From Candidatus Cloacimonadota bacterium (GTDB lineage: Bacteria; Cloacimonadota; Cloacimonadia; Cloacimonadales; WRIO01), in NCBI GenBank assembly GCA_029553545.1, contig JAKPKU010000154.1, positions 1 through 36,109 of the forward strand: DNA of 36,109 nt, read 5' to 3'. The notes beneath the pieces are model-generated. The model had not been told where the DNA came from, made no database searches, and was given only the letters and a program-made list of their open reading frames with translations. Of this stretch, positions 7,534 through 36,109 are shown piece by piece. The first letter of the stretch is position 1; each line of letters opens with the position of its first letter. The position numbers and the translations under genes are program-made.

Positions 7534-7535
7534 AA

Positions 7536-7677
7536 TAATGTAGGGGCGAGCTGTGCTCGTCAGATAGTTTAAATAATGTAGGGGCGAGCTTTGCTCGTCA
7601 GATAGTTAAAATAATGTATGGGCGAGCTTTGCTCGTCAGCAAGTTTAAATAATGTAGGGGCGAGCTGCGCTCGTCAG
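7536..7677 (+). repeat. Four-copy palindromic repeat array (right)
   Basis: Four 28-bp units lie at 7536-7563, 7574-7601, 7612-7639 and 7650-7677, a strict 38-bp period. Each reads TAATGTAGGGGCGAGC, a three-base loop (TGT, TTT, TTT or TGC) and GCTCGTCAG. Spacers are ATAGTTTAAA-like. The arms GGCGAGC/GCTCGTC pair in RNA with one G-U. Unit 3 has GTATGGGC instead of GTAGGGGC. The array begins 3 bases after the stop codon of the upstream plus-strand gene, so it would be in that gene's 3' untranslated region. It is the inverse-oriented counterpart of the array at 60-206. Confidence 0.9.
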
Positions 7678-7722
7678 AAAACCGACGAAATCGCATGCTT
7701 CGCTTCACTGCTGGCTACCTTT

Positions 7723-7749
7723 AAAAAAAACCTTTCACGAATGTGAAAG
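7723..7749 (-). terminator. Rho-independent terminator, minus strand
   Basis: On the minus strand a perfect 7-bp stem (CTTTCAC, loop ATTC, GTGAAAG) is followed by GTTTTTTTT. The next gene upstream on this strand, rnfB, already has its own terminator at 8053-8081. This second one would therefore end readthrough transcripts or an RNA that starts within the repeat region, such as from element copy 1. Confidence 0.65.
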
Positions 7750-7781
7750 CTCCTCACCCGTAGCGTAGCGAGGACCAAAAG
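7732..7781 (+). repeat. Hairpin plus GAGGACCAAA repeat, copy 3
   Basis: This copy has the stem CTTTCAC/GTGAAAG with loop GAAT at 7732-7749, then a tail with CACCCGTAGCGTAGCGAGGACCAAAAG. Compared with the copy at 13-58, both stem arms gained one base that pairs (C and G), which argues that the stem is maintained. The stem doubles as the minus-strand terminator noted at 7723-7749. Confidence 0.7.
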
Positions 7782-7800: not shown

Positions 7801-7913
7801 AAAAAAATCACCCCTAAACCCGCTTGTAGTAGGCATCTGCCGTTTTGGATGAAAATAGCTTTCGAAAAACACCATTTTGTAAGCCCTATATATATAGAGG
7901 GTGTTGTTTTTTT
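7801..7913 (-). repeat. 113-bp A/T-capped element, copy 1
   Basis: Read on the minus strand this copy is nearly identical to those at 20875-20987 and 22346-22459. It has an A run, a CACCCTCTATATATATAGGG block, TTACAAAATGGTG, a central part with GGCAGATGCCTACTAC, then GGGTTTAGGGGTGAT and a T run ending in A. The ends form an imperfect inverted repeat (TAAAAAAA..CACC / GGTGATTTTTTTA). An ATG at 7875 opens a 46-codon frame running down to 7735. The element may be a MITE-like mobile sequence, a structured RNA or a small-peptide gene. It lies between two convergently transcribed genes. Confidence 0.75.
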
Positions 7914-8020
7914 ATCCTGCTTTTAATTGTTTTCTGAGTAAGGTTATTATTCAGAAACATACAGTGGCATAGATGTGTGAAAGAGTGATTCAGAAGTCAC
8001 GGGGCGAAGCTGTAGGCACA

Positions 8021-8052
8021 CGCAACGAAGTGAGGACCAAAAGGTGTTGTTT
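8021..8052 (+). repeat. GAGGACCAAA repeat tail, copy 4 (diverged)
   Basis: CGCAACGAAGTGAGGACCAA followed by AAGGTGTTGTTT matches the repeat tails at 28-58, 207-235 and 7762-7792 with several changes (AACGAAGTGAGG for AGCGAAGCGAGG). It closes the 571-base gene-free stretch 7534-8104. Between element copy 1 and this repeat, 7914-8020 shows nothing recognisable. Confidence 0.5.
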
Positions 8053-8081
8053 AAAAAAAAGCCCAACATTGCTGCTGGGCT
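8053..8081 (-). terminator. Rho-independent terminator of the rnf operon
   Basis: On the minus strand, AGCCCA-GCAGCAATGT-TGGGCT is followed directly by TTTTTTTT, 24 bases after the rnfB stop codon. Stem and U-tract are both clear. Confidence 0.88.
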
Positions 8082-8104
8082 AATTTCTAATTTAAATATA
8101 TTGC

Positions 8105-9127
8105 TTAATTTTCTTTAGCTAAAGCGACTGTACTCCCTTTTTCAACCATTTCAATTGCATTCTTTGGGCAGGCTTTCACGCAAACCTCACAGCCTACACA
8201 GAGCTTAGGATCGACTTTATGAGGATGTTTTAGTTCACCACTAATTGCTTGAACAGGGCACTTTTTAGCACATATCGTGCAGCCGATACACTGATCTTCG
8301 TGGATAAACGCTTCTTTACGTGGAAGCATCCTATCTTCAATAGCCTTTGTAGGGCATACAGATGCACAAATACCGCAATTGATGCACTTGCTATAATCAA
8401 TTATTGCAAGATTATTCACAATGGTAATTGCCTGTGTTGGACAATTCTTTACGCAGAGCCCGCAAGCGATACACGCAGTGTTATTGCCACATGATTTCTT
8501 GGCAATAGGTCCCTTATCGCGGCTTGAACAGAGAATATGAACTCTCTTGCTGATAGGCACGAGCTCGATCAAAGAGCGTGGGCAAGCCTTTACACATGCG
8601 CCACAGCCTGTGCAATTATCTTCATTTACTACTTTCATGCCATCTTCTGTAATATGTAGAGCGTCGAATTGACAAGCCTTCACACAGTCATATTGAAATA
8701 CGCAGCCCCAGATACACTGATTAGGTCCCCCAGCGATTGTCGCAGCAGAACGACAGCTATTTATGCCCTTGTATTCAAATTTGAAAGCGGTATTATTATA
8801 GCCGCCTGATTGGCAATGAATCACGGCTATATCTCTCTCTTTTGGCGTCAGACTGACACCCATAATCGCAGCGATTTTTTTGGCAACTTCTTCGCCACCA
8901 GGAGCACAAAGATTGACAGCGGCACCATTTTGAACTATTGCGTCTGCATAGCCAGCACAGCCTGGAAAGGCACAGCCACCACAGTTTGCTGAAGGTAATA
9001 TGCTGACAATTTCATCTATTTTAGGGTCAACTTCTACAAAGAATTTCTTTGAAGCATAGGCTAAAATTATACCAAAGACAGCCGCCAAACCGCCGATTAG
9101 TAGAGCAGGTATTAATATTGTATTCAT
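8105..9127 (-). CDS. rnfB: Rnf complex subunit RnfB, multi-ferredoxin form
   Basis: RnfB accepts electrons from reduced ferredoxin and passes them into the Rnf complex. The 340-residue protein has an N-terminal membrane helix (about 5-26). A family-specific Fe-S domain follows, with C49, C52, C57 and C74 (CGGCAFPGC). A CxxxCxxxxxCxxxC block lies at 138-152. Five ferredoxin-type CxxCxxCxxxCP motifs begin at 172, 219, 248, 280 and 310. About seven [4Fe-4S] clusters are implied, many more than the three of proteobacterial RnfB (about 190 residues); enlarged RnfB proteins are known from several anaerobes. It is the last gene of rnfCDGEAB, 9 bases after rnfA, and is followed by a terminator. Confidence 0.95.
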   Translation of the reverse strand: MNTILIPALLIGGLAAVFGIILAYASKKFFVEVDPKIDEIVSILPSANCGGCAFPGCAGYADAIVQNGAAVNLCAPGGEEVAKKIAAIMGVSLTPKERDIAVIHCQSGGYNNTAFKFEYKGINSCRSAATIAGGPNQCIWGCVFQYDCVKACQFDALHITEDGMKVVNEDNCTGCGACVKACPRSLIELVPISKRVHILCSSRDKGPIAKKSCGNNTACIACGLCVKNCPTQAITIVNNLAIIDYSKCINCGICASVCPTKAIEDRMLPRKEAFIHEDQCIGCTICAKKCPVQAISGELKHPHKVDPKLCVGCEVCVKACPKNAIEMVEKGSTVALAKEN

Positions 9128-9136
9128 ACTTCCTCC

Positions 9137-9727
9137 TTAACCAAGTTTCAGTCCAGCAAAGCCTAAAAAGGCAAGAGCCATACAGCCTGCAATGATCAGA
9201 GCAATAGGCATTCCTTGCATACTTTTTGGGACTTCTGCTTTTTCCAAGCGTTCTCTGATTCCTGCCATCATTAGCAAGACAAGAGTAAAGCCGACACCGC
9301 CAAAGAATCCATTGAGAATACTATCTAAGAAATTGAGATGATCATTAATATTTATCACAGCTACACCGAGTACAGCACAGTTTGTGGTAATTAGTGGCAA
9401 ATACACACCCAAAGATTTATACAGAGCAGGAGCTGATTTTTGGATAAACATTTCTACAAATTGCACCAATGCCGCAATCGTGAGAATAAAGGCAATCGTC
9501 TGCAAATATTCAAGACCTGTAGGTATGAGTAAATATGCATTGATCAGCCATGTAAAAGCTGAGGCTATCGCCATCACGAAGATCACTGCCATTCCCATAC
9601 CAAAAGCAGAATCGAGCTTCTTTGATACGCCTAAATAAGGGCATAAACCTAAAAAGCGAGACAGCACAAAGTTATTGATAAAAATGGACGAAACTGCCAT
9701 TATTAGTATTTTTGCTATATATTCCAT
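9137..9727 (-). CDS. rnfA: Rnf complex subunit RnfA
   Basis: This 196-residue protein has six predicted membrane helices and the RnfA/NqrE hallmarks: IFINNFVLSRFLGLCPYLGVS near residues 15-35 and the second pseudo-repeat PLITTNCAVLGVAV near 111-124. In each half a conserved cysteine (C29, C117) matches those that hold the intramembrane Fe-S cluster shared between RnfA and RnfE. It lies 3 bases downstream of rnfE and 9 upstream of rnfB, so translation is probably coupled. Confidence 0.95.
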   Translation of the reverse strand: MEYIAKILIMAVSSIFINNFVLSRFLGLCPYLGVSKKLDSAFGMGMAVIFVMAIASAFTWLINAYLLIPTGLEYLQTIAFILTIAALVQFVEMFIQKSAPALYKSLGVYLPLITTNCAVLGVAVININDHLNFLDSILNGFFGGVGFTLVLLMMAGIRERLEKAEVPKSMQGMPIALIIAGCMALAFLGFAGLKLG

Positions 9728-9730
9728 TTC

Positions 9731-10342
9731 TTACTCCTTTACTGCTTTATTCTTGTCTTTGATGATATTAATCAATGCCATTAAGAGCCCAAGAGTGATA
9801 AAAGCACCAGGTGCCAAAATAGCTACCAACATTGGTTCATTGATATATGCTTGAGGGAGAATGGCTATTTCCCAAATCTTGCCAGTGCCTAATATCTCAC
9901 GGATAATGGCAACCACAGATAATGAGAGAGTGAAGCCCAGTCCCATTCCAACGCCGTCCATTAAAGAAGCAAATACACCATTTTTGCAGGCAAAAGCTTC
10001 AGCACGACCAAGGATAATGCAGTTCACAACGATTAATGGAATAAAGATACCCAAGCTCTTATGTAAATCTGGTAAATAAGCTGCCATTGCCATATCTATT
10101 ATTGAGACAAATGATGCAATTACAACGATATAGCCAGGTATTCTTATTTTTGAGGGTATCAAATCTTTGAGTAATGAGATGAGAATATTTGAAAAAGCTA
10201 AGACAAATGTTGCAGCCAAGCCCATACCTATTGCATTTTGTAAAGATGATGTGACCGCCAAAGTAGGGCACATACCCAAGACAAGTACGAAGGTGGGGTT
10301 TTCTTTGAATATCCCTTTAGATAATTCTTTAAATGAGCTCAT
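9731..10342 (-). CDS. rnfE: Rnf complex subunit RnfE
   Basis: This 203-residue, six-helix protein is the partner of RnfA and homologous to NqrD. The motifs NPTFVLVLGMCPTLAVT near residue 15 and PLIVVNCIILGRAEAFA near 102 carry the cysteines C25 and C108 that pair with those of RnfA around the membrane-embedded cluster. CAGGAGGTG precedes the ATG. The gene overlaps the end of rnfG by 14 bases and stops 3 bases before rnfA. Confidence 0.95.
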   Translation of the reverse strand: MSSFKELSKGIFKENPTFVLVLGMCPTLAVTSSLQNAIGMGLAATFVLAFSNILISLLKDLIPSKIRIPGYIVVIASFVSIIDMAMAAYLPDLHKSLGIFIPLIVVNCIILGRAEAFACKNGVFASLMDGVGMGLGFTLSLSVVAIIREILGTGKIWEIAILPQAYINEPMLVAILAPGAFITLGLLMALINIIKDKNKAVKE

Positions 10343-10901
10343 CTTTCACCTCCTGTTTAAAGGTAATGCCAACTAATTCATTTTCAAGATCATAAACATC
10401 CTTTTTAATGGCATTGGTCACGGTACGTGTCGTAATTGTTGCACCTGTAATGCTTTTTATATTACCACCATCTTTGTCGACAGTTAAATCTTTGTATTCG
10501 AGATTAGTATATTTTTCACTAAATTCAGGCTTAATACAGTTAGCACCGAGACCAGGTGTTTCGCTTTGTTGAATGATGATGATTTTTTCAATTTTAAAGT
10601 TTGTATCAATGCCGACCATGATCTGCACATCACTGCTATAACCTCTACCACAAGAAATAAAAGTATAGCCTATTTCTTTGCCTTTTTCATCTTTAGCAAT
10701 ATAATAAACTTTGCCGTTTTTCAATTCTTGTTTTTCAAAGGTTTTTGCTGAGCTGATAACTTGTTCCCTTGCATTGTTTTCTTCTTCTTGCAAATTACGG
10801 TCGATAATTGGCTTGGTTTGTTGATTTACCATTGCCAAAATACCACAAGCGAGGGCAGTTATTATCAAGAGCACAAGGGCATAATGTAAATAAACTTTCA
10901 T
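10329..10901 (-). CDS. rnfG: Rnf complex subunit RnfG (covalent FMN carrier)
   Basis: The 190-residue protein has one N-terminal membrane helix (about 7-25) and an extracytoplasmic FMN-binding domain. It contains ETPGLGA near residues 114-120 and the flavinylation site SITGATITT, with T155 as the expected attachment residue. The FMN transferase ApbE that would load it is not in this window. It overlaps rnfD by 4 bases (ATGA) and rnfE by 14. Confidence 0.94.
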   Translation of the reverse strand: MKVYLHYALVLLIITALACGILAMVNQQTKPIIDRNLQEEENNAREQVISSAKTFEKQELKNGKVYYIAKDEKGKEIGYTFISCGRGYSSDVQIMVGIDTNFKIEKIIIIQQSETPGLGANCIKPEFSEKYTNLEYKDLTVDKDGGNIKSITGATITTRTVTNAIKKDVYDLENELVGITFKQEVKDELI

Positions 10902-11962
10902 TCTTTCACCTCCCCAAATGGCTTAGGTCGTGTATATTTGTCGATAAGGGGCACAAATAAGTTCATGATCAAAATAGCATAAGAAACGCCCTCTGGATAA
11001 CCGCCGATAAGCCTTATTACGACGGTCAAAACACCAGCTCCTATGCCGAAGATCATACGTCCATTCTTGGTTATCGGGGTTGTCACCATATCCGTTGCCA
11101 TAAAGAATGCACCAAGGAAAAGACCACCAGATAAAATGTGAAATAGCGGGAAGGTGAGTGGCGCTGTCATAATACCATCAATGCCGCCAAAGATATATAC
11201 CAAGACGAATACTGTTCCAATATAAAATGCAGGGATACGCCATTCAATAATATTTAGAATAAGCAAATATAGAGCGCCTAAAAGCAAGGCAAAGGCTGAT
11301 ATCTCACCAATACATTGCCCAATATTACCCCAAAAGAGATTGGTGAGCGTTGTGTAATCTGTTAAATGAGTATAAATACTATGTGCATTATCATAACCGA
11401 TAGTTGTTACAACGTCTTTATTTCGCAGCATATTAGCCACACCAAGGGGCGTAGCCTTACTGACTAATTCCATTGCTTTTTCTGGGACATTTTCAAGGTT
11501 CATACCGCTAATCTGTCCGAACTTTGTTGCAGCCCAGCCAGACGTCATTCGTGTGGGCCATGAAGCCAATAAAAAGGCACGTGCCAGCAAAGCAGGATTG
11601 ACAATATTAAAACCAAGCCCACCAAAGGCATGTTTACCAATAGCAATAGCAAAGGCAGAGCCCACTACCACTATCCACCAAGGCACATTTGCATGCACAT
11701 TAAAAGCTACAAGCATACCTGTGATAACGGCAGAACCATCAGTCACAGTGATCGGCTTTTTTCTCAGCTTTTGGATCAAAGCTTCTGTAATAACAGCTGT
11801 TGCAACACCGTAAATAGTCAGTTCTAAAGCCCTAAAACCAAAATATATAATTCCTGCCACCAAAGCAGGTAGCAAAGCAATAACGACATTCCACATTACA
11901 AACTTTACATTAGTCACGTCATGTAGATGTGGAGAACTGCTTACAATTGTTTTATCTTTCAT
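10898..11962 (-). CDS. rnfD: Rnf complex subunit RnfD
   Basis: This 354-residue membrane subunit is homologous to NqrB. It shows VNPALLARAFLLASWP near 121-136, the covalent-FMN motif SKATPLG with T171 as the likely flavin-linked threonine, and FMATDMVTTPIT near 285-297. It carries a flavin in the membrane and forms part of the ion path. It starts 37 bases after rnfC, the largest gap within the operon, and overlaps rnfG by 4 bases. Confidence 0.95.
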   Translation of the reverse strand: MKDKTIVSSSPHLHDVTNVKFVMWNVVIALLPALVAGIIYFGFRALELTIYGVATAVITEALIQKLRKKPITVTDGSAVITGMLVAFNVHANVPWWIVVVGSAFAIAIGKHAFGGLGFNIVNPALLARAFLLASWPTRMTSGWAATKFGQISGMNLENVPEKAMELVSKATPLGVANMLRNKDVVTTIGYDNAHSIYTHLTDYTTLTNLFWGNIGQCIGEISAFALLLGALYLLILNIIEWRIPAFYIGTVFVLVYIFGGIDGIMTAPLTFPLFHILSGGLFLGAFFMATDMVTTPITKNGRMIFGIGAGVLTVVIRLIGGYPEGVSYAILIMNLFVPLIDKYTRPKPFGEVKE

Positions 11963-11999
11963 TTCATACCTCTATAATAATACAAAATTAGCTCGGAAA

Positions 12000-13328
12000 T
12001 TATGATTTAGCTGCTCGACGCATAGCGGTAATTTGGTTTTTACCTAAATCAACCCATTGAATAATCTTGATATGAGCAGGGCAAACATAAGAGCAGGAGC
12101 CGCATTTCATGCAGTCCATCACCCCTGACTTCTCTGCCATATCCCAATCTTTATATTTCACTGCGGAGGCAATAAAGCTGGGTAGAAGATTGAGTGGACA
12201 CGCATCAACACAACGTCCACAGCGTAAGCAAGCATGCTCGTCAAGCGACTTAGCCTGTGTTTTACTAAACAATAGTATTCCAGAGGTAGTCTTACTCACG
12301 GGGGCATCGAGATTAGGCAATGCAAAGCCCATCATGGGACCACCAGAGATAATCTTGCCTATCTCTTCTTTTGTACCATCACACTTTTCAACTAATTCTG
12401 AAAAGGCTGTACCAACTCTTGTTCGCAGATTCTTTGGATTATTTACAATCTGACCGCTTACTGTTACCACACGCTCAATCAGAGGCTTTTTATAGCGCAC
12501 TGCCTCATAAATTGCGATTGCTGTACCAACGTTTTGTACAACAACTTCTACGCTACTTGGCAAGCCACCTTTGTTTGGTACCTTTCTCTTTGTACACGCA
12601 TAAATTAGCTGTTTTTCTGCACCTTGTGGGTATTTAAGTTTCAAACCAACAACATCGAGTTCTTTTTCTGTTTTTAATAAATTCGCCATTTTTTTGATTA
12701 CATCAGGCTTATTATTCTCAACGCCAATATAGCCTTGCTTAGCGCCAAGTACTTTCATAATAATCTTTAAGCCTGATATAATATCATCGGTTCTTTCCAG
12801 CATCGCTCGGTAATCTGCAGTCAAATAAGGCTCACACTCAACACCATTCAAAATCACAGTGTCAATCGGCTTATCTGCAGGTGGAGATAGCTTGATAAGG
12901 GTTGGGAAACCAGCTCCGCCCATACCGCACACTCCCGCATCACCAATGCGCTTTTTAATCTCTTCGACTGGTAAATCTAAATAATTAGTATCGTCTACTA
13001 AGTCCACCCATTCATCTTGTTCTTCTGCTTCAATTTCAATAGCCATTGACTGATATCCGCCAGGATGCGGAAACATATCGATCTTTGTGACCTTCCCCGT
13101 CACGCTCGAATGCATAGCTAATGATACAAATGCAGAAGGCTCTGCGATTAATTGTCCAGTTTTCACCCTATCACCAGGTTTCACAATTGGATTAGCAGGG
13201 GCACCTATGTGCTGTGATAGAGGAATCACAACCTTTTTTGGGACACCCATCGGCTCAATAGCAGAGTTTTTTGAATACTCTTTGCTATCCTTAGGATGGA
13301 CACCTCCAATAAAGCTTTTTAATTTCAT
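12000..13328 (-). CDS. rnfC: Rnf complex subunit RnfC (NADH-binding)
   Basis: RnfC exchanges electrons with NAD(H). The 442-residue protein begins with a biotin-lipoyl-like region (KPGDRVKTGQLIAEP near 51-65). It continues with the glycine-rich NADH/FMN segment GVCGMGGAGFPT near 132-143 and the ECEPYLTADYR motif, an SLBB-type region, and two ferredoxin motifs starting at C367 (CLRCGRCVDACP) and C406 (CMKCGSCSYVCP). GGGGGAG precedes the ATG. The 123-base gap to the upstream gene is the only sizeable one before the operon and holds a weak candidate promoter (TTGCCA 13390-13395, TAATAC 13369-13374, spacing 15). The rnf genes may thus have their own start or be co-transcribed with the upstream genes. 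Confidence 0.95.
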   Translation of the reverse strand: MKLKSFIGGVHPKDSKEYSKNSAIEPMGVPKKVVIPLSQHIGAPANPIVKPGDRVKTGQLIAEPSAFVSLAMHSSVTGKVTKIDMFPHPGGYQSMAIEIEAEEQDEWVDLVDDTNYLDLPVEEIKKRIGDAGVCGMGGAGFPTLIKLSPPADKPIDTVILNGVECEPYLTADYRAMLERTDDIISGLKIIMKVLGAKQGYIGVENNKPDVIKKMANLLKTEKELDVVGLKLKYPQGAEKQLIYACTKRKVPNKGGLPSSVEVVVQNVGTAIAIYEAVRYKKPLIERVVTVSGQIVNNPKNLRTRVGTAFSELVEKCDGTKEEIGKIISGGPMMGFALPNLDAPVSKTTSGILLFSKTQAKSLDEHACLRCGRCVDACPLNLLPSFIASAVKYKDWDMAEKSGVMDCMKCGSCSYVCPAHIKIIQWVDLGKNQITAMRRAAKS

Positions 13329-13451
13329 TCTTTCTCCCCCATTTTATTAATTCAAATTTAGAAAACAAGTATTATGATTTGCTAAATAATGGCAAGATTT
13401 TTTTTGCTTTTTGTAAAAATAATTGAAATCTGTGTTAAAAAGTCAGGAAAA

Positions 13452-14870
13452 TCAAATCAATTCGTACTGATATGAATAATCCAAACGGCTCAATACCTCA
13501 TCTGTACAGCCACGACTGAGAGCCATAAAGGACACTGCCGCATCGTCTCTAAATTCTTCTGTGAGATATCCCAGCTTGACGATTACCAGGTCTTTTTTTA
13601 GATGATTAATGCCTAAAGCCTTAAACATTTCTGAATTGGTAAAGCCGATATGTTTTGAGCAGATTATCAGCTCAAATTCTTTAGTTTTAAAGAGGATAAG
13701 AGTGGTATTTAATAGACCAAAGCCCTCAATCTTTTTAATCGGCACACCCTGAAGCAATACGGGTTTGCAGTATTTTGTATCATAAATACCTCCGACAAAA
13801 AGCTCGATCTCTGTTTGCATATTCTTCTCGCAGAAAGCCACAGCTAATGGATCAAAAATGCCTGCAATTAAGATACTTTTTTCATTAATCTTATCTTTCA
13901 AATCTTTGCTCAAAAGTCTTATTATTTCAGTATTATCGGCAGTTGAACCAGCGGTTGGATTGTCGCCCGAATCAGAAACAAAGACAGGCTTTTTCTCTTG
14001 TTTTAATGCTTCTATAAGAGCTTGCTCAGGCGGTAAAGAGGGCATAGAAAAACCAAAAAGGTGTTTCTTTTCCTTAAATTTATCAGCAAGATATCTGGCA
14101 GCATGATCAGCTCTCTCTTGATCTGTTTTGCAGACCACTATCGCTGTTACACCATTTTCCTTCGCATCAGCCCATGGAAAGCCAAGACAATAAGAAGCTG
14201 ACAATATTTCAGCCTCTTTCTCCAGCTGATGCAACTCGTCGATCAGTGATTTCATTGGCTGGCAATCAGTCTCCGACTTTTCACCAGCGATTAGGCAATT
14301 AACCTTTGCATAAGCGGTTTTCAAGGTGATCTTATTTTTCAAAGAAAAGTCTGCTAATTCAGCGATCTTATAACCTGTTTCCCAAACGTCAATATGCGGC
14401 GCAGTCTTAAAAGCAACAAAGGCATCAGCTGTTTCCATCATCGTTTTAGTTATGCTGGCATGCATATCAAGAGCAGAGAAAATCGGCGTGCTGGGGTACT
14501 GTTTTTTGATGTCTGCCAGCAAGTCGCTTTCAGCTGAGCCGATGCCCTCAACTCGCATCGAACCATGCAATGCAAGCACAAATGCATCGATTTGAGGCGC
14601 TTCCTTTAGATATGCAAAGAACCGCTCTTTCAATAGCAAATAGTACTCTCTGTTTATTTCTCCATTTGGCACAGCCTTCATAAAAACCAATGGATAAAGC
14701 GAATACTCGCCTCTCTCTTGAAAATAATCAATAATACCCTTTGCCATTATAAACGCTGATTTATTAGTAAAAATCTCTTCTTTTTCAAAAACAACTATAT
14801 CTTCTTTACCCGTAATAATGGGGTTAAATGTATTTGATTCGTGGAAAAACCCACCTATTGCAATATTCAT
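13452..14870 (-). CDS. M81 family metallopeptidase (MlrC/microcystinase-like)
   Basis: The 472-residue protein matches the M81 family, named for MlrC, which cleaves linearised microcystin. The N-terminal domain has FFHESNTFNP (H10), LALHGSM near 99-105, and the zinc ligands D135 and H137 (LDMHAS) plus H159 (TAPHID), with the same spacing as in MlrC. A C-terminal domain contains SDSGDNPTAGSTADNT near 300-315. There is no signal peptide. Most M81 members have no known substrate; a peptide or amide hydrolase is the safe reading, and peptide fermentation would suit it. It starts 11 bases after tatD and precedes the rnf operon. Confidence 0.85.
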   Translation of the reverse strand: MNIAIGGFFHESNTFNPIITGKEDIVVFEKEEIFTNKSAFIMAKGIIDYFQERGEYSLYPLVFMKAVPNGEINREYYLLLKERFFAYLKEAPQIDAFVLALHGSMRVEGIGSAESDLLADIKKQYPSTPIFSALDMHASITKTMMETADAFVAFKTAPHIDVWETGYKIAELADFSLKNKITLKTAYAKVNCLIAGEKSETDCQPMKSLIDELHQLEKEAEILSASYCLGFPWADAKENGVTAIVVCKTDQERADHAARYLADKFKEKKHLFGFSMPSLPPEQALIEALKQEKKPVFVSDSGDNPTAGSTADNTEIIRLLSKDLKDKINEKSILIAGIFDPLAVAFCEKNMQTEIELFVGGIYDTKYCKPVLLQGVPIKKIEGFGLLNTTLILFKTKEFELIICSKHIGFTNSEMFKALGINHLKKDLVIVKLGYLTEEFRDDAAVSFMALSRGCTDEVLSRLDYSYQYELI

Positions 14871-14881
14871 TTTCTATCCTT

Positions 14882-15640
14882 TTAAAAAGCTTCTTGAAGA
14901 AAAAACCTCTTAGCATTTTGATATGTCTGTTCTGCTACAAGGTTTGGTGGAATACGCAAGATATCACTAATCTTTTGCACCACATAAGTCAGATATTCGG
15001 GCGTATTTCTCTTGCCACGATGAGGAACAGGCGTCAGATACGGGCTATCTGTTTCAATAAAAAACTTATCTTTTGGTAAGATGCGCACTACGTCTGCAAG
15101 ATCATTATTCTTATAGGTAATCACGCCTGTAATGCTGATATACCAATCTTCGGCAAGCACTTTCTCAGCAAAAGCGACATCACCAGAAAAACAATGAAAA
15201 ACAACCTTCTTTGCTTTATTTTGCTTGAGCACGTCAAAGCAGTCTTCATGCGCTTCTCGATCGTGAATAATGATCGGTTTATCTATCTCGCAAGCAATCT
15301 CAACTTGCCTTGCAAAAGCCTTTTTTTGCATATCTTTGGGATTATAATTACGATAATAATCGAGTCCTATTTCACCTATTGCCACTACTTTTTTATGCTT
15401 TGCCAATTCATATACCACTTTCTCATTGAAAATCTTTACCGTAGAGGGGTGGTAGCCTACACTTGCATAGATTTCTGGATATTGTTCTGCCAATTTAATT
15501 GAATCTCGCGAGCTTTTTTCATCTATACCGATATTTATAATGTTTTTCACGCCTACTTTGAAGGCTTTTTGGATCATCTGTTCGCGGTCATGCTTGTAGT
15601 CATCAAAATCTAAATGCGCATGTGTCTCAAAGATATTCAT
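14882..15640 (-). CDS. tatD: TatD family metal-dependent DNase
   Basis: This 252-residue TIM-barrel amidohydrolase-fold protein carries the full TatD metal-site set: H7 and H9 in ETHAHLD, E in GEIGLDYY near 92-99, H in IIHDREA, H in VFHCFSG and D in ETDSPYLTPVPHRGKRN. TatD-like enzymes are 3'-5' exonucleases or D-aminoacyl-tRNA deacylase-type hydrolases; the exact activity here is not certain. It lies 17 bases after the zinc-ribbon membrane gene and 11 before the M81 gene, inside the gpsA operon. Confidence 0.92.
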   Translation of the reverse strand: MNIFETHAHLDFDDYKHDREQMIQKAFKVGVKNIINIGIDEKSSRDSIKLAEQYPEIYASVGYHPSTVKIFNEKVVYELAKHKKVVAIGEIGLDYYRNYNPKDMQKKAFARQVEIACEIDKPIIIHDREAHEDCFDVLKQNKAKKVVFHCFSGDVAFAEKVLAEDWYISITGVITYKNNDLADVVRILPKDKFFIETDSPYLTPVPHRGKRNTPEYLTYVVQKISDILRIPPNLVAEQTYQNAKRFFLQEAF

Positions 15641-15657
15641 ACTTACTCCTCTATTAC

Positions 15658-16506
15658 TCAGCTAACTTCTTTCTCGATATTCTTTTCCAAAATGCCATTA
15701 TCTTTATATTTTTGATACTGGCTTCTGATTAATTGCCAGGAGAAAGGAAAGATAATAAGCGAATAAGCTATACCAAGCAATAGGGCGATTATACTGATAA
15801 TCCATGTATTTAGCATATTGTACTTTGTCAATGAATTTGCATAGAGCATTAATAAAAAAGCTGGAACATTGACAATTACGATGAAGATAGAGAGAAACAC
15901 ATTTTGCCAACGAATGGTATGTTTGCCAAAAGTATAAGCTTTTTTGATCGCTTTAATGGGGCATATCGGATTTTCAAACATCATGGTAGGCACATGAAGA
16001 ACAATAGCCAAACCATAAATTATTAGAATAAAATGTACCAAATTTAAAATGGGGTCGCCTTGACAAATAAGCTTCAATAAGAGCAAGTAAAGAGAAGAGG
16101 CGACACATAACACTAATTGAGCAGGATAGTGTCTTAAAAGGGCAAAATACTCAGAAATATGAGAGCTTTTTGAGAAGAAGTCATCCTCCTTCGCAAGAGC
16201 AATTAACCAAAACGGCATAAAAAGAGAAATAACAAGTAAATTCAAGGCATAGTAAAAGAAAGGTCTAATATTTACAAAATTGCGGTGCAGCAAATACAAA
16301 CCAAGAATGAGTGGCACAACTGAAAATATAAAAGTAATGAGAGAAAAACTTATATGTTTGCTGATATGCTTAGAATATGTGCTAAAGACTTCTCTGATTG
16401 TCTTAGATGCTGACAAATTCTCTTTTACAAAGCTCGTAGCAGTTCCACAATGATTACAAAAAATACTATTTGCAGGTATTTTACCCTTACACTTTTTACA
16501 ATTCAT
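15658..16506 (-). CDS. Zinc-ribbon multi-pass membrane protein, function unknown
   Basis: This 282-residue protein begins with a zinc ribbon (CKKC at 3-6, CNHC at 17-20). About six hydrophobic helices follow, at roughly 50-75, 85-108, 130-145, 155-178, 200-225 and 235-258, and the tail is charged. The layout is that of a small-molecule or signalling membrane protein of unknown role, and I do not recognise a specific family. It is located between gpsA (28 bases) and tatD (17 bases). Its closeness to a glycerol-phosphate gene does not by itself establish a lipid role. Confidence 0.75.
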   Translation of the reverse strand: MNCKKCKGKIPANSIFCNHCGTATSFVKENLSASKTIREVFSTYSKHISKHISFSLITFIFSVVPLILGLYLLHRNFVNIRPFFYYALNLLVISLFMPFWLIALAKEDDFFSKSSHISEYFALLRHYPAQLVLCVASSLYLLLLKLICQGDPILNLVHFILIIYGLAIVLHVPTMMFENPICPIKAIKKAYTFGKHTIRWQNVFLSIFIVIVNVPAFLLMLYANSLTKYNMLNTWIISIIALLLGIAYSLIIFPFSWQLIRSQYQKYKDNGILEKNIEKEVS

Positions 16507-16534
16507 TTTGTCTCCTTTAAATCAAAAAATACGC

Positions 16535-17509
16535 TCATACAGGCATCTTCAACAATACTTCTTCTAAATCTTTTCTCAGGTCAGCTTCGCCGTTAATCGT
16601 GTCAACAACGAATGAGATCAGCGGTAAAGAGATATTTAATCTGGTCAATTTCATTACGGTTTTAGCCATAGAGACGCCTTCGACTTCCATGCCCACTTTT
16701 TGTAGTGCAGAGTCCACATCCAAGCCCTGAGCTAAGAGCTTTCCAAACTGTCGGTTTCTGCTGTTTTCTGATAAGCAAGTTGTGATCAGGTCACCCATAC
16801 CTGCGATGCCGTATACAGTTTTGGGATTAACATTAAAAAACTTCATTAATTTATAAAATTCCGAGAGTCCTTTTGTCATCAAAAGCCCAAAGATATTAGT
16901 CTTATAGCCAAGTCCATCTGCAATGCCAATAGCAATAGCGATCAAACCTTTCAGCGAGGCAGCCAGCTCGATACCTTTTACATCTGTGCTAAACTCAAAA
17001 AAGAGCCTTGAATTTGCCAATTCCTTTTGTAAATAGAAGAGCAATTCTATGTCATCAGATGCCAAAACAGCCTTTGCGGGCAAGCCTTCTGCAATTTCTC
17101 GGGCAATAGTCGGTCCTGAGAGATTAGCAAAATGCACTTTTGGTATAAAATCTTTTACTATTTCATGAATAGTCTTGAGGCTCTTGTGTTCAACGCCTTT
17201 TGAAACATTTACATAAATTGGCTGGGTATAGCCTTGTGCCTTTATTTCTTCGCATATTTCATGAACTTTTCTGGAGGGCACGCTGACTATCAAGATATCA
17301 TCGCTATTTAATCTACTATTGTATTTTTTTTCAGCAGAAATATTATCAGGCAGCATTATGCCAGGCAAAAACTGTCTATTCTCACGATCTTTATTGATCT
17401 GATCAGCTTCTTCAGTAGTATTGGTCCACAGTACAATTTGGTTTTTTTCAGCAAAGACTGTAGCTAAAGTTGTTCCCCAATTTCCAGCACCTAAAACGTA
17501 TACTTTCAT
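16535..17509 (-). CDS. gpsA: Glycerol-3-phosphate dehydrogenase [NAD(P)+]
   Basis: GpsA makes sn-glycerol-3-phosphate, the backbone of phospholipids, from dihydroxyacetone phosphate. The 324-residue protein has the Rossmann motif GAGNWG at 7-12, the catalytic-site lysines K104 (NVSKGVE) and K187 (ELAASLKGLIAIA), LSGPTIAREI near 130, GLGYKTN, and the GMGDLITTC motif. At the second lysine the usual KN is KG, a minor deviation. GGAGAAAAA precedes the ATG. It heads a run of four genes (zinc ribbon, tatD, M81) and is separated from khpB by a terminator. PgsA, which uses its product, is encoded at 29696-30256. Confidence 0.95.
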   Translation of the reverse strand: MKVYVLGAGNWGTTLATVFAEKNQIVLWTNTTEEADQINKDRENRQFLPGIMLPDNISAEKKYNSRLNSDDILIVSVPSRKVHEICEEIKAQGYTQPIYVNVSKGVEHKSLKTIHEIVKDFIPKVHFANLSGPTIAREIAEGLPAKAVLASDDIELLFYLQKELANSRLFFEFSTDVKGIELAASLKGLIAIAIGIADGLGYKTNIFGLLMTKGLSEFYKLMKFFNVNPKTVYGIAGMGDLITTCLSENSRNRQFGKLLAQGLDVDSALQKVGMEVEGVSMAKTVMKLTRLNISLPLISFVVDTINGEADLRKDLEEVLLKMPV

Positions 17510-17574
17510 TTTTTCTCCTAAAACGTCTTCAACACTGTAATTCAGACAGGCAATAAATGTTTCATTTTATTTTC

Positions 17575-17605
17575 AAACAAAACCAAACCCCTCGCATTGG
17601 AGGGG
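17575..17605 (-). terminator. Rho-independent terminator after khpB
   Basis: On the minus strand, CCCCTC-CAATGC-GAGGGG is followed by TTTGGTTTTGTTTG. It sits 12 bases beyond the khpB stop codon and closes the rpmH-rnpA-yidD-yidC-khpB operon. Confidence 0.85.
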
Positions 17606-17617
17606 CTTGCTGATAAT

Positions 17618-18337
17618 TTATTCACTTGTTTTTTGAGTATGGTTGTTTTGTTTATGTTGGTGATGTGTGCTTTTAAATGTTTTTCTATTACCTTGATTCT
17701 TATTTGAAAAGCCTTTTTTAGCAAGAGAGATCACGACAGTTTTCTTTCTTCCATCGCCGATAGTCGTTGTTTTAAATCTCTTATCTTCTTGTACTCTGTG
17801 GTGTATCAATCGTCTTTCGGCAGAGATAAGTGGGTTCAGAGAGACACTTACTCGTGTTTTTAGCACTTTTGCCATAGCAATTTCAGCATCACGTTTGAGC
17901 GTATTAGCACGTCTTTGACGGTAATTATCCACATCTAAAATAATCTTGCCTTCTACCTCTTGATTTCTGAGAATACTGAGGTTTAATAAGTACTCTAAAT
18001 CATTGAGGAAATTGCCATCTTTACCGATAATAACACCAGGTTCTGTGGGATTAATTATCGTGACTTTGTATACATGGTCGATATTTTCAATTTCGATTAC
18101 ATCAAAACTCATCTGAATATGATTAAAGAAATCAAATAAATAGAGGCGTATTTCTTCAGAATAATTTGTAACAGTAAATTTTACTATTGCATCCTTTCCG
18201 CCAAATAGCCCTAAAAAAGAGGAAGTTGGTTCTTGTACAACTTCATATGTAAATTGATTATCATTGAGTTTATATTCTTTTTTAAAATCTTGAATAGCGA
18301 GATCAACTGTCTTTGCAGTTTTTTCAATTGTTTTCAT
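17618..18337 (-). CDS. khpB: RNA-binding protein KhpB/Jag (Jag-N, KH, R3H)
   Basis: The 239-residue protein has the three usual parts. A Jag-N domain (about 1-52) ends in the SSFLGLFGGKDA motif. A KH domain contains GVIIGKDGNFLNDLEYLLN near 97-115. An R3H domain has the RRLIHHRV motif and IGDGRKKTVVISL near 180-200. The C-terminal about 30 residues are basic and histidine/asparagine-rich, an extra tail likely to touch RNA. KhpB binds RNA and acts in cell-wall and division control in Gram-positive bacteria. Its place directly after yidC, with a 1-base gap, is conserved across phyla. Confidence 0.93.
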   Translation of the reverse strand: MKTIEKTAKTVDLAIQDFKKEYKLNDNQFTYEVVQEPTSSFLGLFGGKDAIVKFTVTNYSEEIRLYLFDFFNHIQMSFDVIEIENIDHVYKVTIINPTEPGVIIGKDGNFLNDLEYLLNLSILRNQEVEGKIILDVDNYRQRRANTLKRDAEIAMAKVLKTRVSVSLNPLISAERRLIHHRVQEDKRFKTTTIGDGRKKTVVISLAKKGFSNKNQGNRKTFKSTHHQHKQNNHTQKTSE

Positions 18338-18338
18338 T

Positions 18339-20009
18339 TTAAGCCTTCTTCTTGTAGTCTTTGTATAATTGTTGTACTATTTGGAACACATTAAATACCA
18401 TCCAATATAGCACAAGACCGGATGGTAGAGATTTGAAAATAAAAAACATAAATATAGGCATTATATACATCATCATTTTCTGGCTTTGGATTTGAGCTTG
18501 TTGTTTTTCGTCCATCTTTTTAAGATCTTCGGGACTTGTGTTTGCCATAGTCATTTTTTGTTGTACAAACATTGATATGCCCATGAGAATTGGTAATACC
18601 CAGAATTTATCAGGTTCAGATAGGTCTGCCAACCAACCAAAGAACTCAGCTTGTCTGAGGTCAATCGAGCTTCTCAAGACAGGGTAGAGAGCGAAGAAGA
18701 TAGGCATTTGCAAAAGTAAAGGCAAGCATCCGCCTAATGGATTGATTTTATGTTCTTTATAGAGTTTTTGTAATTCTTGATTCATACGTTGCGGATCGCT
18801 TTTGTATTGCTTTTGGATTTCTTGCATCAGCGGATTAATTTCTTGCATCTTTTTTGCCGACTGCATAGTCTTATTGGTCAGCGGAGAGAGTAAAAGCTTT
18901 AATACCAGAGCAAAGATAATAATAACGATACCCCAATTTGTGATGAATTTATTAAGGAAATTCAAGAAATGTAAGAAGATCTTGCTCAGCCATCTCAACC
19001 AAGCGCTTCCAAGCTCGGCAATATCTTCCATGCCATTATTGAAAGCTGAGAGTTTGCTATAGTCTACAGGACCTAAATAGAGTTGATAGTTGTCTTCAAA
19101 GACAGAGCTTCTTTTGCTAAAATCGACATTATAAACAAAAGCAGGGCTATCTTCACTTGCAAAAATATCAATACCTTTGGACTCAATTTTCTTTTCAGGG
19201 ATAAGGGCATAAATGAAATATTTAGAGCGCACAGCAGCCCAATCAATACTACCATAATGCTTTAAGGTCGCATCTTTTGTCCCCTGATTTGTCATCTTGC
19301 CAATCTCTTTATTGATTTTATAAAGAGTAACTTGTTCGTATTTATTGCCGACCTGGCTGATAAGTTTGAAAGAGTTCTTTTTATCTTTTGTGGATGCAGT
19401 GCTCTCTTCAGTCAGCTTTATACCTGAGTCAAAGCCAATTGTATAGCCATCTAAAGAGGCGTAGTTTTCATTTATAAATTTTAAATCGAGCGTATAATCA
19501 TCATACAGGGTAAATACCTTGCTCAATAACTTTGTGCCATTTTCTGATTCAAAATAGAAAGTTAAAACTTGAGCGCTATCTGTTTGGCTATGTTCATATT
19601 TTAAATTATAATCAGCAAGAGAGATATAGCCATCAGACGTTTTTAAAACAATATTTGTCAAATCTTGATCTTCTGGTATTAGCTGGACGGGGGTTTCTTT
19701 GTCAGCTAAGGAATAATCTTTAACGACGATAGATCTTAAATTTCCACCTTTATTTGTAAAAGTGAGGCTGAGTTGGTCATTCTCAATAACAATATTTTCA
19801 TCCAATTCAACAGCTTGATTAACGACAGGGGTACTAATGAGTTCTGGTTGTTTTTCTACAACTTCATTTTGCTTGTTATTTGTATCTTCGACAGTCTGAA
19901 CAGTTTGAGTTTGGGCATTTTCAATTGTTTTTGGTTTCCAGAAATATTCTGAAGCCACCCAATAGATTACCATAATTAAGATAATGGCAATGATTGTTCT
20001 TTTTTCCAA
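18339..20009 (-). CDS. yidC: Membrane protein insertase YidC
   Basis: The 556-residue protein is the long, Gram-negative type. An N-terminal helix (5-20) is followed by a low-complexity linker, a large beta-rich periplasmic domain (about 60-320), and the five-helix insertase core (about 345-550). The core has NWGIVIIIFALVLKLLL, the coiled stretch KMQEINPLMQEIQKQY, NPLGGCLPLLLQMPIFFALY and LPSGLVLYWMVFNVFQI. It inserts proteins into the inner membrane alone or with SecYEG. The periplasmic domain supports a diderm envelope. It lies 31 bases after yidD and 1 base before khpB. Confidence 0.96.
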   Translation of the reverse strand: MEKRTIIAIILIMVIYWVASEYFWKPKTIENAQTQTVQTVEDTNNKQNEVVEKQPELISTPVVNQAVELDENIVIENDQLSLTFTNKGGNLRSIVVKDYSLADKETPVQLIPEDQDLTNIVLKTSDGYISLADYNLKYEHSQTDSAQVLTFYFESENGTKLLSKVFTLYDDYTLDLKFINENYASLDGYTIGFDSGIKLTEESTASTKDKKNSFKLISQVGNKYEQVTLYKINKEIGKMTNQGTKDATLKHYGSIDWAAVRSKYFIYALIPEKKIESKGIDIFASEDSPAFVYNVDFSKRSSVFEDNYQLYLGPVDYSKLSAFNNGMEDIAELGSAWLRWLSKIFLHFLNFLNKFITNWGIVIIIFALVLKLLLSPLTNKTMQSAKKMQEINPLMQEIQKQYKSDPQRMNQELQKLYKEHKINPLGGCLPLLLQMPIFFALYPVLRSSIDLRQAEFFGWLADLSEPDKFWVLPILMGISMFVQQKMTMANTSPEDLKKMDEKQQAQIQSQKMMMYIMPIFMFFIFKSLPSGLVLYWMVFNVFQIVQQLYKDYKKKA

Positions 20010-20040
20010 ATTTCCTCCAAAATTATATCATAAGTGAGTA

Positions 20041-20259
20041 TTAGGGTAGTGGATCATCTCCACCAGGGTGAAAGGGATTACACTTCAAAACACGTATCAC
20101 AGATAAAAAAAGAGCTTTGGGTAGAGAGTATTTTATAAAAGCTTGCCTTGCATATTCGCTGCATGTGGGAGTAAATCGGCATGCTGGTGGCAATAAAGGA
20201 GAGATATATCTTTGATAAAACCGTATCAAATAATAAAATGGATAATTAATTATTCGCAT
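20041..20259 (-). CDS. yidD: Membrane protein insertion efficiency factor YidD
   Basis: This 72-residue protein shows the YidD signature: [20 protein letters not shown] near residues 15-34, followed by YARQAFIKY and CNPFHPGG near the C-terminus. The three conserved cysteines are present (C27, C33, C59). It assists membrane insertion by YidC, next to which it sits. Its start overlaps the rnpA end by 14 bases, a common arrangement. Confidence 0.94.
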
Positions 20260-20584
20260 ATTGATTCAATCTCTCAAATTGCCTATATAGATCTTTTTTC
20301 AAAAGCAAAAAATCTACCTCGACAATATCTGGACGTGCAATAATATTAATTTGAAAACGCGATAAGGCTGAAGGCTCATGGTAATCTCTCAAAATTGAAC
20401 GTAATCGCCTTTTGATGAGGTTTCTTACAACCGCATTACCCACTTTTTTACTTACTGTGATACCTACAGCCAACTCTGTATTCTCTTCGTTTTCAAGGTA
20501 AATCAACAAAAAGTACTTGCCAAAAAGCTTCTTCTCGCTTTTTCTCAGCTGGTCAAATATACTTTTTTGTTTGATGAATTGCAT
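20246..20584 (-). CDS. rnpA: Ribonuclease P protein component
   Basis: This 112-residue basic protein has the RnpA features: [16 protein letters not shown] near 40-55 and the RNR-type motif [14 protein letters not shown] near 55-68. It is the protein part of RNase P, which matures tRNA 5' ends. The ATG immediately follows the rpmH stop codon with no gap, so the two are translationally coupled. The RNase P RNA gene is not in this window. Confidence 0.93.
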
Positions 20585-20719
20585 TTATACGCAGAGAACT
20601 TTTCTTCCTTTTGCTCTTCTACGTGCTAATACTTTTCGACCATTCTTGGTTGCCATTCTGCTTCTGAAGCCATGTACGGACTTTCTTCTTCTATTATGTG
20701 GCTGAAATGTTCTTTTCAT
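20585..20719 (-). CDS. rpmH: Large ribosomal subunit protein bL34
   Basis: The 44-residue product starts [20 protein letters not shown] and contains [19 protein letters not shown], which is unmistakably bL34. The terminal VLCV replaces the more usual LSA/LTV ending. GGAGG lies 8 bases before the ATG. It is the first gene of the minus-strand cluster and is expressed from the promoter at 20771-20798. In many bacteria rpmH abuts dnaA and oriC; here neither dnaA nor clear DnaA boxes are visible next to it. Confidence 0.97.
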
Positions 20720-20770
20720 TTTTTATCCTCCAAATTTTTGTATTTTTGAATAATCATTTCCTAAATTGCC

Positions 20771-20798
20771 AAATTATTAGGTCTATTGTAAGTGTCAA
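20771..20798 (-). promoter_or_regulatory. Promoter of the rpmH operon
   Basis: On the minus strand, TTGACA (20793-20798) is followed after 16 bp by TAATTT (20771-20776). The -35 is perfect and the -10 is weaker. The start point would be near 20764, giving a leader of about 45 bases before rpmH. Confidence 0.6.
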
Positions 20799-20825
20799 GA
20801 AAAAAAAGAAAAAGTAATTAAAGAA

Positions 20826-20987
20826 GCTGTTGCATAGTAGCAAAAATTACTTAAAAAGAATAAAACTGAGTCATAAAAAAACATCACCCTCTATATATAT
20901 AGGGCTTACAAAATGGTGTTTTTTGAAAACTATTTTCACCCAAAACAGCAGATGCCTACTACGAGCGGGTTTAGAGGTGATTTTTTT
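20826..20987 (+). repeat. 113-bp element, copy 2, with extended left flank
   Basis: The core at 20875-20987 matches the element at 22346-22459 in the same orientation and at 7801-7913 inverted. Similarity to the 22294 copy also extends left to GCTGTT at 20826, including AAAAGAATAAA, for about 160 bp in all. The ends read TAAAAAAACATCACCC and GAGGTGATTTTTTTA. An ATG at 20913 opens a 43-codon frame to 21044, whose first about 25 residues resemble those from the other copies. The rest of this gene-free stretch (20988-21171) is AT-rich and shows nothing recognisable. Confidence 0.75.
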
Positions 20988-21171
20988 ACGGATCACAATT
21001 CTTTATTGGCTCAGATCAATTACATTTCATTTCTCAGTTCTTAGCTTTCAATATTCTTCAAGTCTGTAAACCCGAATTATCCATTAATCAACACACTCTA
21101 AAAGCCTGTTTTTGTATCATACTTTTTTGAGGTATATTCACTATAAAAAAATGATTTATTCGATAAAAAAC

Positions 21172-21199
21172 TTGACTTTTAAATTATATTTATTAATCT
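21172..21199 (+). promoter_or_regulatory. Candidate promoter of the ATP-grasp gene
   Basis: TTGACT (21172-21177) and TAATCT (21194-21199) are separated by 16 bp, about 26 bases before the ATG at 21225. The -35 is good and the -10 is weak. Confidence 0.42.
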
Positions 21200-21224
21200 G
21201 GGTAAAAACATATATTGAGGTTAT

Positions 21225-22274
21225 ATGAAAAGAATCATCATTATCATGGGCTATAATAAGTTTTTTGGTCAAGCAAGAAAGCCTTGGGCTTCTCTTAATA
21301 CTGACTTATTTGTAGACGAGCTGAAGAATCATGGGTATAATATCGAATTATACGAGTTTTATCAAATTGCCAATGACTTAGTGAAACTCAAAAATGAAAT
21401 TATCATTTACAGCTTTAGTCAAAAGTTTAACTTAAGATTTTTGATCAAAGACACTATCCGCTACCTTGAAAAAGAGGGCAATGTAGTCATTCCAGACTTT
21501 AATTTATTGTATTGCCATGAGAATAAGGGGTATCAAGAATTTTATAAGCGTCAATTGGGAATAACGAAGCCTAAAGCACTCTATTTTAGCAGCAAAAGAG
21601 AAATGGAAAACATGGATATTAAGTTTCCTAAAGTGCTAAAGACGATAGAAGGATCTAATGGTCGAGGGGTATTCCTTGTGCGCTCAAAAAAAGATGTTTA
21701 TCGAGTCTTAAAGAAAATAGAAAAACAGCTGAGTATTTTTGAGAGAATAGACTTATTGCGCCGCCATTTTTTTAGAAAGCAAAAGACCTTTGCTGGCTAT
21801 CCTGATTTTAATCCAATGAAAGATTATTACCAATACCGTGATTATATAACACAAGAGGTGCCATTTGTTTTACAAGATTTTGTTGAAAATCTCGACTGTG
21901 ATTATCGTGTTATTGTGCTTTATGACCGCTATTTTGCAGTGAAAAGAATGACCAATAAAGGTGATTTTCGAGCAAGTGGGACCAAAAAATTCATCTTTGA
22001 TTTTGAAATGCCCAAGGGGCTGCTCGACTATGCGAAAGAGATATTTGACACTTTTAAATCACCACTTTTATCAATGGATATTGGCTTTGATGGCAAAGAC
22101 TTTTATCTCTTTGAATACCAGGCAATTCACTTTGGAATTAGTGCTGTAGTGAGATCAAACGGATATCATGTGTTGGAGAATGGTCACTGGAAGTTTACAC
22201 AAACCACGACTGTTTTTGAAGTTGCCATAGCTGAGGCTTTTGATAAATATGTAAAATTGGGGTGCGCAAAGTAG
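21225..22274 (+). CDS. ATP-grasp domain protein, substrate unknown
   Basis: This 349-residue protein has an N-terminal about 100-residue domain (opening KRIIIIMGYNKFFGQARKPW) and a RimK-like ATP-grasp domain. Visible motifs are the glycine-rich ATP loop KTIEGSNGRGVFLV near 139-152, QDFVENLDCDYRVIVLYDRY near 216-235, AVKRMTNKGDFRASG, and the metal-binding end DIGFDGKDFYLFEYQ. The usual final E-x-N is E-Y-Q, which occurs in some RimK-like proteins but is worth noting. Such enzymes ligate a carboxylate to an amine or thiol using ATP. It is monocistronic, with GAGG before the ATG, and is bracketed by two direct copies of the 113-bp element. Confidence 0.75.
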   Translation: MKRIIIIMGYNKFFGQARKPWASLNTDLFVDELKNHGYNIELYEFYQIANDLVKLKNEIIIYSFSQKFNLRFLIKDTIRYLEKEGNVVIPDFNLLYCHENKGYQEFYKRQLGITKPKALYFSSKREMENMDIKFPKVLKTIEGSNGRGVFLVRSKKDVYRVLKKIEKQLSIFERIDLLRRHFFRKQKTFAGYPDFNPMKDYYQYRDYITQEVPFVLQDFVENLDCDYRVIVLYDRYFAVKRMTNKGDFRASGTKKFIFDFEMPKGLLDYAKEIFDTFKSPLLSMDIGFDGKDFYLFEYQAIHFGISAVVRSNGYHVLENGHWKFTQTTTVFEVAIAEAFDKYVKLGCAK

Positions 22275-22293
22275 CAAAGCTATATAAAGAGAG

Positions 22294-22459
22294 GCTGTTA
22301 CTCACTAAATCAAAATAGCATATAAAAGAATAAAGCAGATATTATAAAAAGCATCACCCTCTATATACATAGGGCTTACAAAATGGTGCTTTTTGAAAAC
22401 TATTTTCACCTAAAACAGCAGATGCCTTATAGGAGCGGGTTTATAGGTGATTTTTTTTT
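22294..22459 (+). repeat. 113-bp element, copy 3, with extended left flank
   Basis: The core 22346-22459 is in the same orientation as copy 2, with several substitutions (TATATACATAGGG, GGTGCTTTTTG, CCTTATAGGAGC). The left flank from GCTGTT at 22294 also matches copy 2. The ends read ATAAAAAGCATCACCC and AGGTGATTTTTTTTTA. An ATG at 22383 opens a 48-codon frame ending at 22529, inside the last codon region of the convergent sdaA. It fills the space between the convergent ATP-grasp and sdaA genes, and its stem and T run could also terminate transcription. Confidence 0.75.
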
Positions 22460-35656: not shown

Positions 35657-36045
35657 GTTGAAATTTATTCTTTCTCTTTTTATAAGTATAATAACAAATC
35701 TTTGAATAAAAAACTATATAATTCTTGAAACTTTTACTCAATAAATCAAAACAACTTGTAAAAGAATACAGATATTTTTTTGTACCTCAAAAACTCATAA
35801 AAAATCTCCTTTGCATTCCCTTTCGATTCCTATAAGATTACCTTGCATTCTCCAAGATAGCAAGGGGAATGTAAGGGTAGTCACATTGACAATAGATTGA
35901 AAAATAGTGATATACAAAATAGAATTGATAATTAGTAAAAAGAGGAGAAAACGGATATATTAACAGAGAGAGGGTGTTGCATAGTCAACTATATTTTCTC
36001 AAGAAATCTATTTAAAAAAAGGCATAAAATTAATGTAAATATCTC
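35657..36045. other. Gene-free AT-rich stretch with a long hairpin
   Basis: Between the thiN promoter and the promoter at the right edge there is no credible coding frame. The notable structure is a hairpin at 35811-35874. TTGCATTCCCTTT (35811-35823) pairs with 35862-35874 over 13 contiguous positions, with G-U pairs only in plus-strand RNA. A second TTGCATTC (35843-35850) and a CCTTGC/GCAAGG pair (35841-35846, 35860-35865) give alternative foldings. GTTGCATAGT at 35976-35985 matches the left flank of element copy 2 (20830-20839). Confidence 0.6.
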
Positions 36046-36073
36046 TTGACAAATAAGTTAGGAGGTTTATATT
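36046..36073 (+). promoter_or_regulatory. Promoter of the gene at the right edge
   Basis: TTGACA (36046-36051) and TATATT (36068-36073) are separated by 16 bp. The start point would be near 36080, giving a very short leader with AAGGAG at 36091-36096 and an ATG at 36104. Confidence 0.75.
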
Positions 36074-36103
36074 GGTACTTAATCAACCACAAGGAGATAA
36101 GAA

Positions 36104-36109
36104 ATGAAT
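36104..36109 (+). CDS. Start of a gene cut off by the window edge
   Basis: Only ATGAAT (Met-Asn) is visible. The call rests on the strong promoter 31 bases upstream and AAGGAG (36091-36096) 7 bases before the ATG. Nothing can be said about the product. Confidence 0.65.

Follow-up and report, generated by a model that had tools for sequence, protein, structure and literature searches.

A 113-bp intergenic repeat of a Candidatus Cloacimonadota genome as the probable core of a MITE family driven by an IS5-family insertion sequence

The closest described counterparts of the repeat discussed here are the type II bacterial MITEs, among which the Correia elements of Neisseria, ERIC, QMITE1/2 of Coxiella and Chunjie of Geobacter have been reviewed (PMC10969869). 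As in that class, the units are shorter than 500 bp, AT-rich and intergenic, with short terminal inverted repeats (TIRs) and with direct repeats flanking the young copies; they occur in tens to hundreds of copies with gradients of truncation, and share with their helper insertion sequence (IS) only the TIRs (PMC10969869). Unlike the families named, to which no sequence relation is claimed, they have the TIR GAGGSTGTTG, a 5-bp duplication and a modular core that is also found alone in a sister species. With the IS5 family (the NF033581 group) the likeness lies in the transposase of the helper, which matches the model, and in the TIRs of a related element (AAGACTGTTGCATAG), which resemble the ends of the MITE; the differences are that the MITE lacks coding sequence and has only terminal bases in common with the IS, and that the 5-bp duplication is a value measured here rather than taken from the family description. 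The mosaics of several intergenic repeat types, with nested elements, also recall the BIME/REP or pneumococcal BOX/RUP/SPRITE clusters, from which the present units differ by their 5-bp duplications and IS5-type helper. No report of a MITE in Cloacimonadota was found in a literature search, and the present work documents for this group a high-copy family together with its likely helper. The family is new but in other respects ordinary: it adds one more case to a familiar class of elements and leaves general concepts unchanged.

The window (the whole stretch of 36,109 nucleotides that was analysed) belongs to a 2.88-Mb metagenome-assembled genome (MAG) of Candidatus Cloacimonadota in 268 contigs, referred to below as the host genome (G000). 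An earlier note on this DNA had placed three copies of a 113-bp repeat in its spacers, and these were recovered at 7801–7913 (minus strand), 20875–20987 (plus strand) and 22345/6–22457 (plus strand), all three intergenic and with 93–94% identity to the middle copy, a similarity far beyond chance (blastn E values of 1e-42 to 1e-59). The A/T-capped inverted ends it described are also present, as an A-run/ATCACC on one side and GGTGATTTTTTT on the other, with a CCCTCTATATATATAGGG palindrome in the interior. The sharp ends at 113 bp, instead, did not survive closer comparison, as the two plus-strand copies have 134 nt in common and a module, or modules, are seen beyond the core among the roughly 100 copies of the genome. 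With a probability that can be put at approximately 0.85, the 113-bp repeat is the core of a MITE family driven by an IS5-family insertion sequence.

Most core copies of the host genome form the centre of a larger unit of 275–285 bp, or of 314–315 bp in a second subfamily with a longer right module. Alignment of the copies with their flanks showed a conserved left module (A, approx. 57 nt) and a conserved right module (B, approx. 110 nt) beyond the core. For the 100 core copies that were mapped, with approximately 0.5 Mb around them, and with module presence called at a shuffled-flank threshold, 43 carry A and B, 25 A only, 11 B only and 18 neither, while the right side could not be judged in three. 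The unit is bounded by the TIRs GAGGSTGTTGCATAG.../...ATTAATCAACACCCTC, which have 10 bp in common in the consensus, and when its ends are located by the paired motifs GAGGSTGTTG and CAACASCCTC the length classes are sharp, at approximately 72 bp (from A to the start of the core), 276–285 bp (A–core–B) and 314–315 bp, the full units clustering at approximately 282 and 315 bp. The only complete unit in the window (20823–21098, plus strand, 276 bp) consists of the left TIR GAAGCTGTTGCATAG, module A, the middle core, module B (20988–21098, plus strand) and the right TIR ATTAATCAACACACTC. The third core is part of a partial copy (22291–22457, plus strand) made of module A and core, with the right module decayed or replaced; the copy at 7801–7913 is reduced to the core, A and B both falling below threshold there, and is adjoined on either side by other intergenic repeats (P motif). 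A decayed A-like fragment is found at 35731–35771 (plus strand; 83% identity to 22295–22335). Open reading frames overlapping the units are few, small and attributable to chance. The family is short (less than 500 bp), non-coding, multi-copy and intergenic, with TIRs and a 5-bp duplication. In one copy (L072, C173:3430–3541) module A points the opposite way from the core and the two meet at the short inverted repeats, which suggests recombination or inversion between these repeats.

The duplication was identified in the sequences flanking 27 full units, whose ends had been fixed by motif and thus independently of the flanks. The 5-bp flanks matched exactly in 18.5% of the units against 1.7% with shuffled partners, and their identity was 58.5% against 41.6%, a value that none of 2,000 shuffles reached; repeats of 2, 3, 4, 6, 7, 8 or 9 bp gave no signal in the same 27 units. 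The TA-targeting (Tc1/IS630-type) MITE considered earlier was discarded, since matching 2-bp flanks are no commoner in the units (14.8%) than among shuffled pairs (16.8%). For the complete unit of the window the candidate duplication is TTAAA on the left (20818–20822) and TAAAA on the right (21099–21103), identical at four of five positions. The conserved modules, the length classes and the 5-bp repeat together indicate that the usual mobile unit in the host genome is the larger one. The MITE interpretation of the earlier note was therefore supported, with corrections: the ends lie elsewhere, the duplication measures 5 bp and is not TA, and a likely helper of the IS5 family is found at the window edge as well as elsewhere in the genome.

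The same note had called for a search for empty sites and TA duplications. One nested insertion with related empty sites was found. On contig C250 a 315-bp unit (12034–12348) lies within another unit (11851–12434); when the flanks of the inner unit are joined, the resulting sequence matches many uninterrupted copies through the junction, over at most approximately 250 nt and with approximately 75–80% identity, and AATAA stands on either side of the outer unit. A filled site and its related empty counterparts are in this way seen within a single genome.

The helper would be the IS whose left end closes the window (35970–36109, plus strand), with the TIR GAGGGTGTTGCATAG followed by a promoter-like TTGACA box, AGGAG and an ATG at 36104, after which window and contig stop. 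The statement that no transposase is present holds for the listed open reading frames only because the contig stops inside the IS. The IS is known in pieces, namely the left end (GAGGGTGTTGCATAGTCAAC..., then the TTGACA box, AGGAG and ATG), which recurs at five contig ends with 137 nt in 100% identity, 35970–36106 of the window among them, and the right end (...CGGCTTTATTTAACACCCTC), found on C117, C7 and C183, whereas the middle is unassembled. C117 opens within a DDE transposase, of which it holds the 3' half (PF01609, 3e-24); the best NCBIfam model for this partial protein is NF033581 (IS5 family, 1.9e-29), with a score of 103 bits, to be read against a cut-off of 140 that applies to the whole protein. 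The window left end and the C117 right end very probably bound a single insertion, because AGAGA, the target duplication of the IS at 35965–35969, is also the 5 nt that follow the right end on C117. The reading frame of the IS on C216, read from the DNA, begins MNRNDMTFADIEI and resembles full-length homologues in related genomes, which begin MKRNIITFADAEI and DRNSLTFTDNEI and score 217 and 239 bits, above the IS5 cut-off; the homologues are approximately 1.3–1.4 kb in length, and one such element in a related genome has the TIRs quoted above, close to the ends seen here. On C235 a 101-bp internal-deletion derivative of the IS has AACTT on both sides, a perfect duplication. The IS, with the TIR GAGGGTGTTGCATAG and 5-bp duplications, is a putative autonomous element with ends that match those of the MITE. 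The sequence common to MITE and IS amounts to approximately 10–16 terminal bases, so the assignment of the helper relies on the ends and on the duplication length and not on internal sequence. Repeats of this kind help to explain the contig breaks in the host genome.

From these features a course of events can be proposed. The IS5-family transposase would recognize the common ends and move the MITE in trans; copies would be retained between genes, those landing within genes being removed by selection; and recombination between short inverted ends, besides nested insertion, would generate truncated, inverted and mosaic copies, of which 7801–7913 and 22291–22457 may be examples. An RNA or regulatory function is not needed to explain the pattern.

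A genome-wide search, as the earlier note had recommended, gave 104 matches to the core pattern in the host genome against none for the reversed control pattern, so that the repeat is far from confined to the window. Among 148 genomes searched, strong matches were limited to the host and its sister species (G001, also a MAG), and no viral contig matched the core pattern. Two Bacteroidales matches to the pattern were rejected as family members, as they cover approximately 20 nt of the core, are coding-like and agree in number with the chance expectation. Weak matches to the model in other Cloacimonadota families involve only the left half (TATATATATAGAGGG-like) and were treated as chance or promoter similarity; in L169–L174 and L179–L189 the minus strand reads TTGACA...TATATATATAGAGGG, which is promoter-like, and in L173, from another Cloacimonadota family, GGAGG and ATG lie downstream of the promoter-like match.

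The sister species, which has at least 37 diverged core copies in unrelated flanks, offers a clean case of a core repeat common to two species and packaged differently. Mean core identity is 58.5% across species, 67% within G001 and 82% within G000, and the flanks of the sister-species copies become unrelated exactly where the A-run and T-run end the core; some of these copies are approximately 90% identical to a consensus. Modules A and B are absent from this species save for one G000-like copy on contig C87, the only one with module B; the copy may be a binning error, both genomes being MAGs. Contig JAJBBH010000072.1 (Candidatus Cloacimonadota LW2 Bin 16_7, of the same genus as the host) starts identically to locus L032 of G001. 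The core-only copies of the sister species, which lack detectable 5-bp duplications, are not explained by an IS5-driven MITE, and no homologue of the IS transposase was found in that species at E ≤ 1e-10. A further observation counts against the MITE reading: within the same units pairwise conservation is 0.88–0.90 for the core, 0.83 for A and 0.75 for B, which is unexpected for a simple MITE, although it could reflect the collection of the copies via the core. Possibly the core is the older of the two, an element in its own right that an IS5-type MITE took up as cargo in the host. In its full form this alternative is rather unlikely: the core would be mobile by itself, with imperfect inverted ends capped by A/T and no target duplication, would be carried by the IS5-type MITE in the host and would spread naked in the sister. 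It would account for the boundaries of the sister-genome copies, for a core common to species that do not share A and B, and for the approximately 18 host copies with neither module above threshold. However, no target-duplication signal was detected at the core ends, no helper gene was found for it, and several host core-only copies abut other repeats, so that loss of A and B by recombination is also possible. A wider formulation is rather doubtful: the core would be separately mobile or selected, would move in one species with no target duplication and in the sister would have been enclosed by IS5-type ends, and two or more insertion sequences would use its TATATATATA tract (20892–20901 in the middle copy) as a landing site. 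This tract, which may be an insertion landing site, is broken by insertion sequences in other copies: the IS5-type element also lies within it (C148/C183, C7), and a second IS with ends like GAGAGCTTTGATTTAG appears to lie in or beside it in L148 (end of C116), L113 (start of C229) and L032/L166 (G001:C87).

The alternatives that assign the core a function in the cell fare worse than the MITE reading. That it is a host-maintained chromosomal site, bound by a nucleoid or segregation protein and homogenized within each species, is most improbable, even if the core is more conserved than its flanks and approximately eight spacers are occupied in host and sister alike. These are only approximately eight out of approximately 30 sister-species copies, and positional conservation finds no support in them, as orientation agrees in approximately half and the similarity of the copies does not exceed that of cross-species pairs drawn at random; moreover, no strand or gene-orientation rule was detected, and the transposition footprints are clear. 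The earlier note had also considered a long-range stem followed by a T run, in which two folds would exclude each other. A structured RNA or bidirectional terminator, in which a terminal stem competes with the internal hairpin, could draw on the inverted A/T-capped ends and on single copies that fold better than shuffles (one copy reached a z of −3.1 on one strand), but most single-copy z-scores are near or above −2, and the genes flanking the core, taken from simple ORF calls for copies with both neighbours known, show no orientation preference (22 divergent, 18 convergent and 28 tandem). No conserved pairing emerged from the covariation analysis that the note had proposed: RNAalifold returned no consensus pairs for 46 copies from both species, and neither the terminal stem, nor the local hairpin, nor a middle pairing exceeded its shuffled controls. 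The top column couplings of the covariation scan proved to be linked subfamily-diagnostic sites and were rejected as base pairs. Rfam gave no match at the gathering threshold and no credible overlapping match at E ≤ 1. A role as structured RNA or terminator is thus very unlikely.

A few minor features of these loci may be recorded. In the sister species, at L137 (G001:C15), two genes are connected by a core copy; their orthologues in G000 occupy separate contigs and each has a core copy next to it, which points to a possible rearrangement at the repeat. In the window, a RimK-like ATP-grasp gene (21225–22274) lies between the two direct repeat copies; the sister species lacks it, and its distribution across the order is patchy. 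A 38-nt tandem repeat (TGACGAGCACAGCTCGCCCCTACATTATTTTAACATG) occurs in four copies each at 50–206 and 7530–7680, in opposite orientation and approximately 7.4 kb apart. A dispersed intergenic repeat (CTCACCCGCAGCGAAGCGAGGACCAAA) is present at 24–57, 7746–7779 and 8008–8041, and in other copies of the core it often adjoins the right end (right ends ACAACACACCTTTTGGTCCTCGC).
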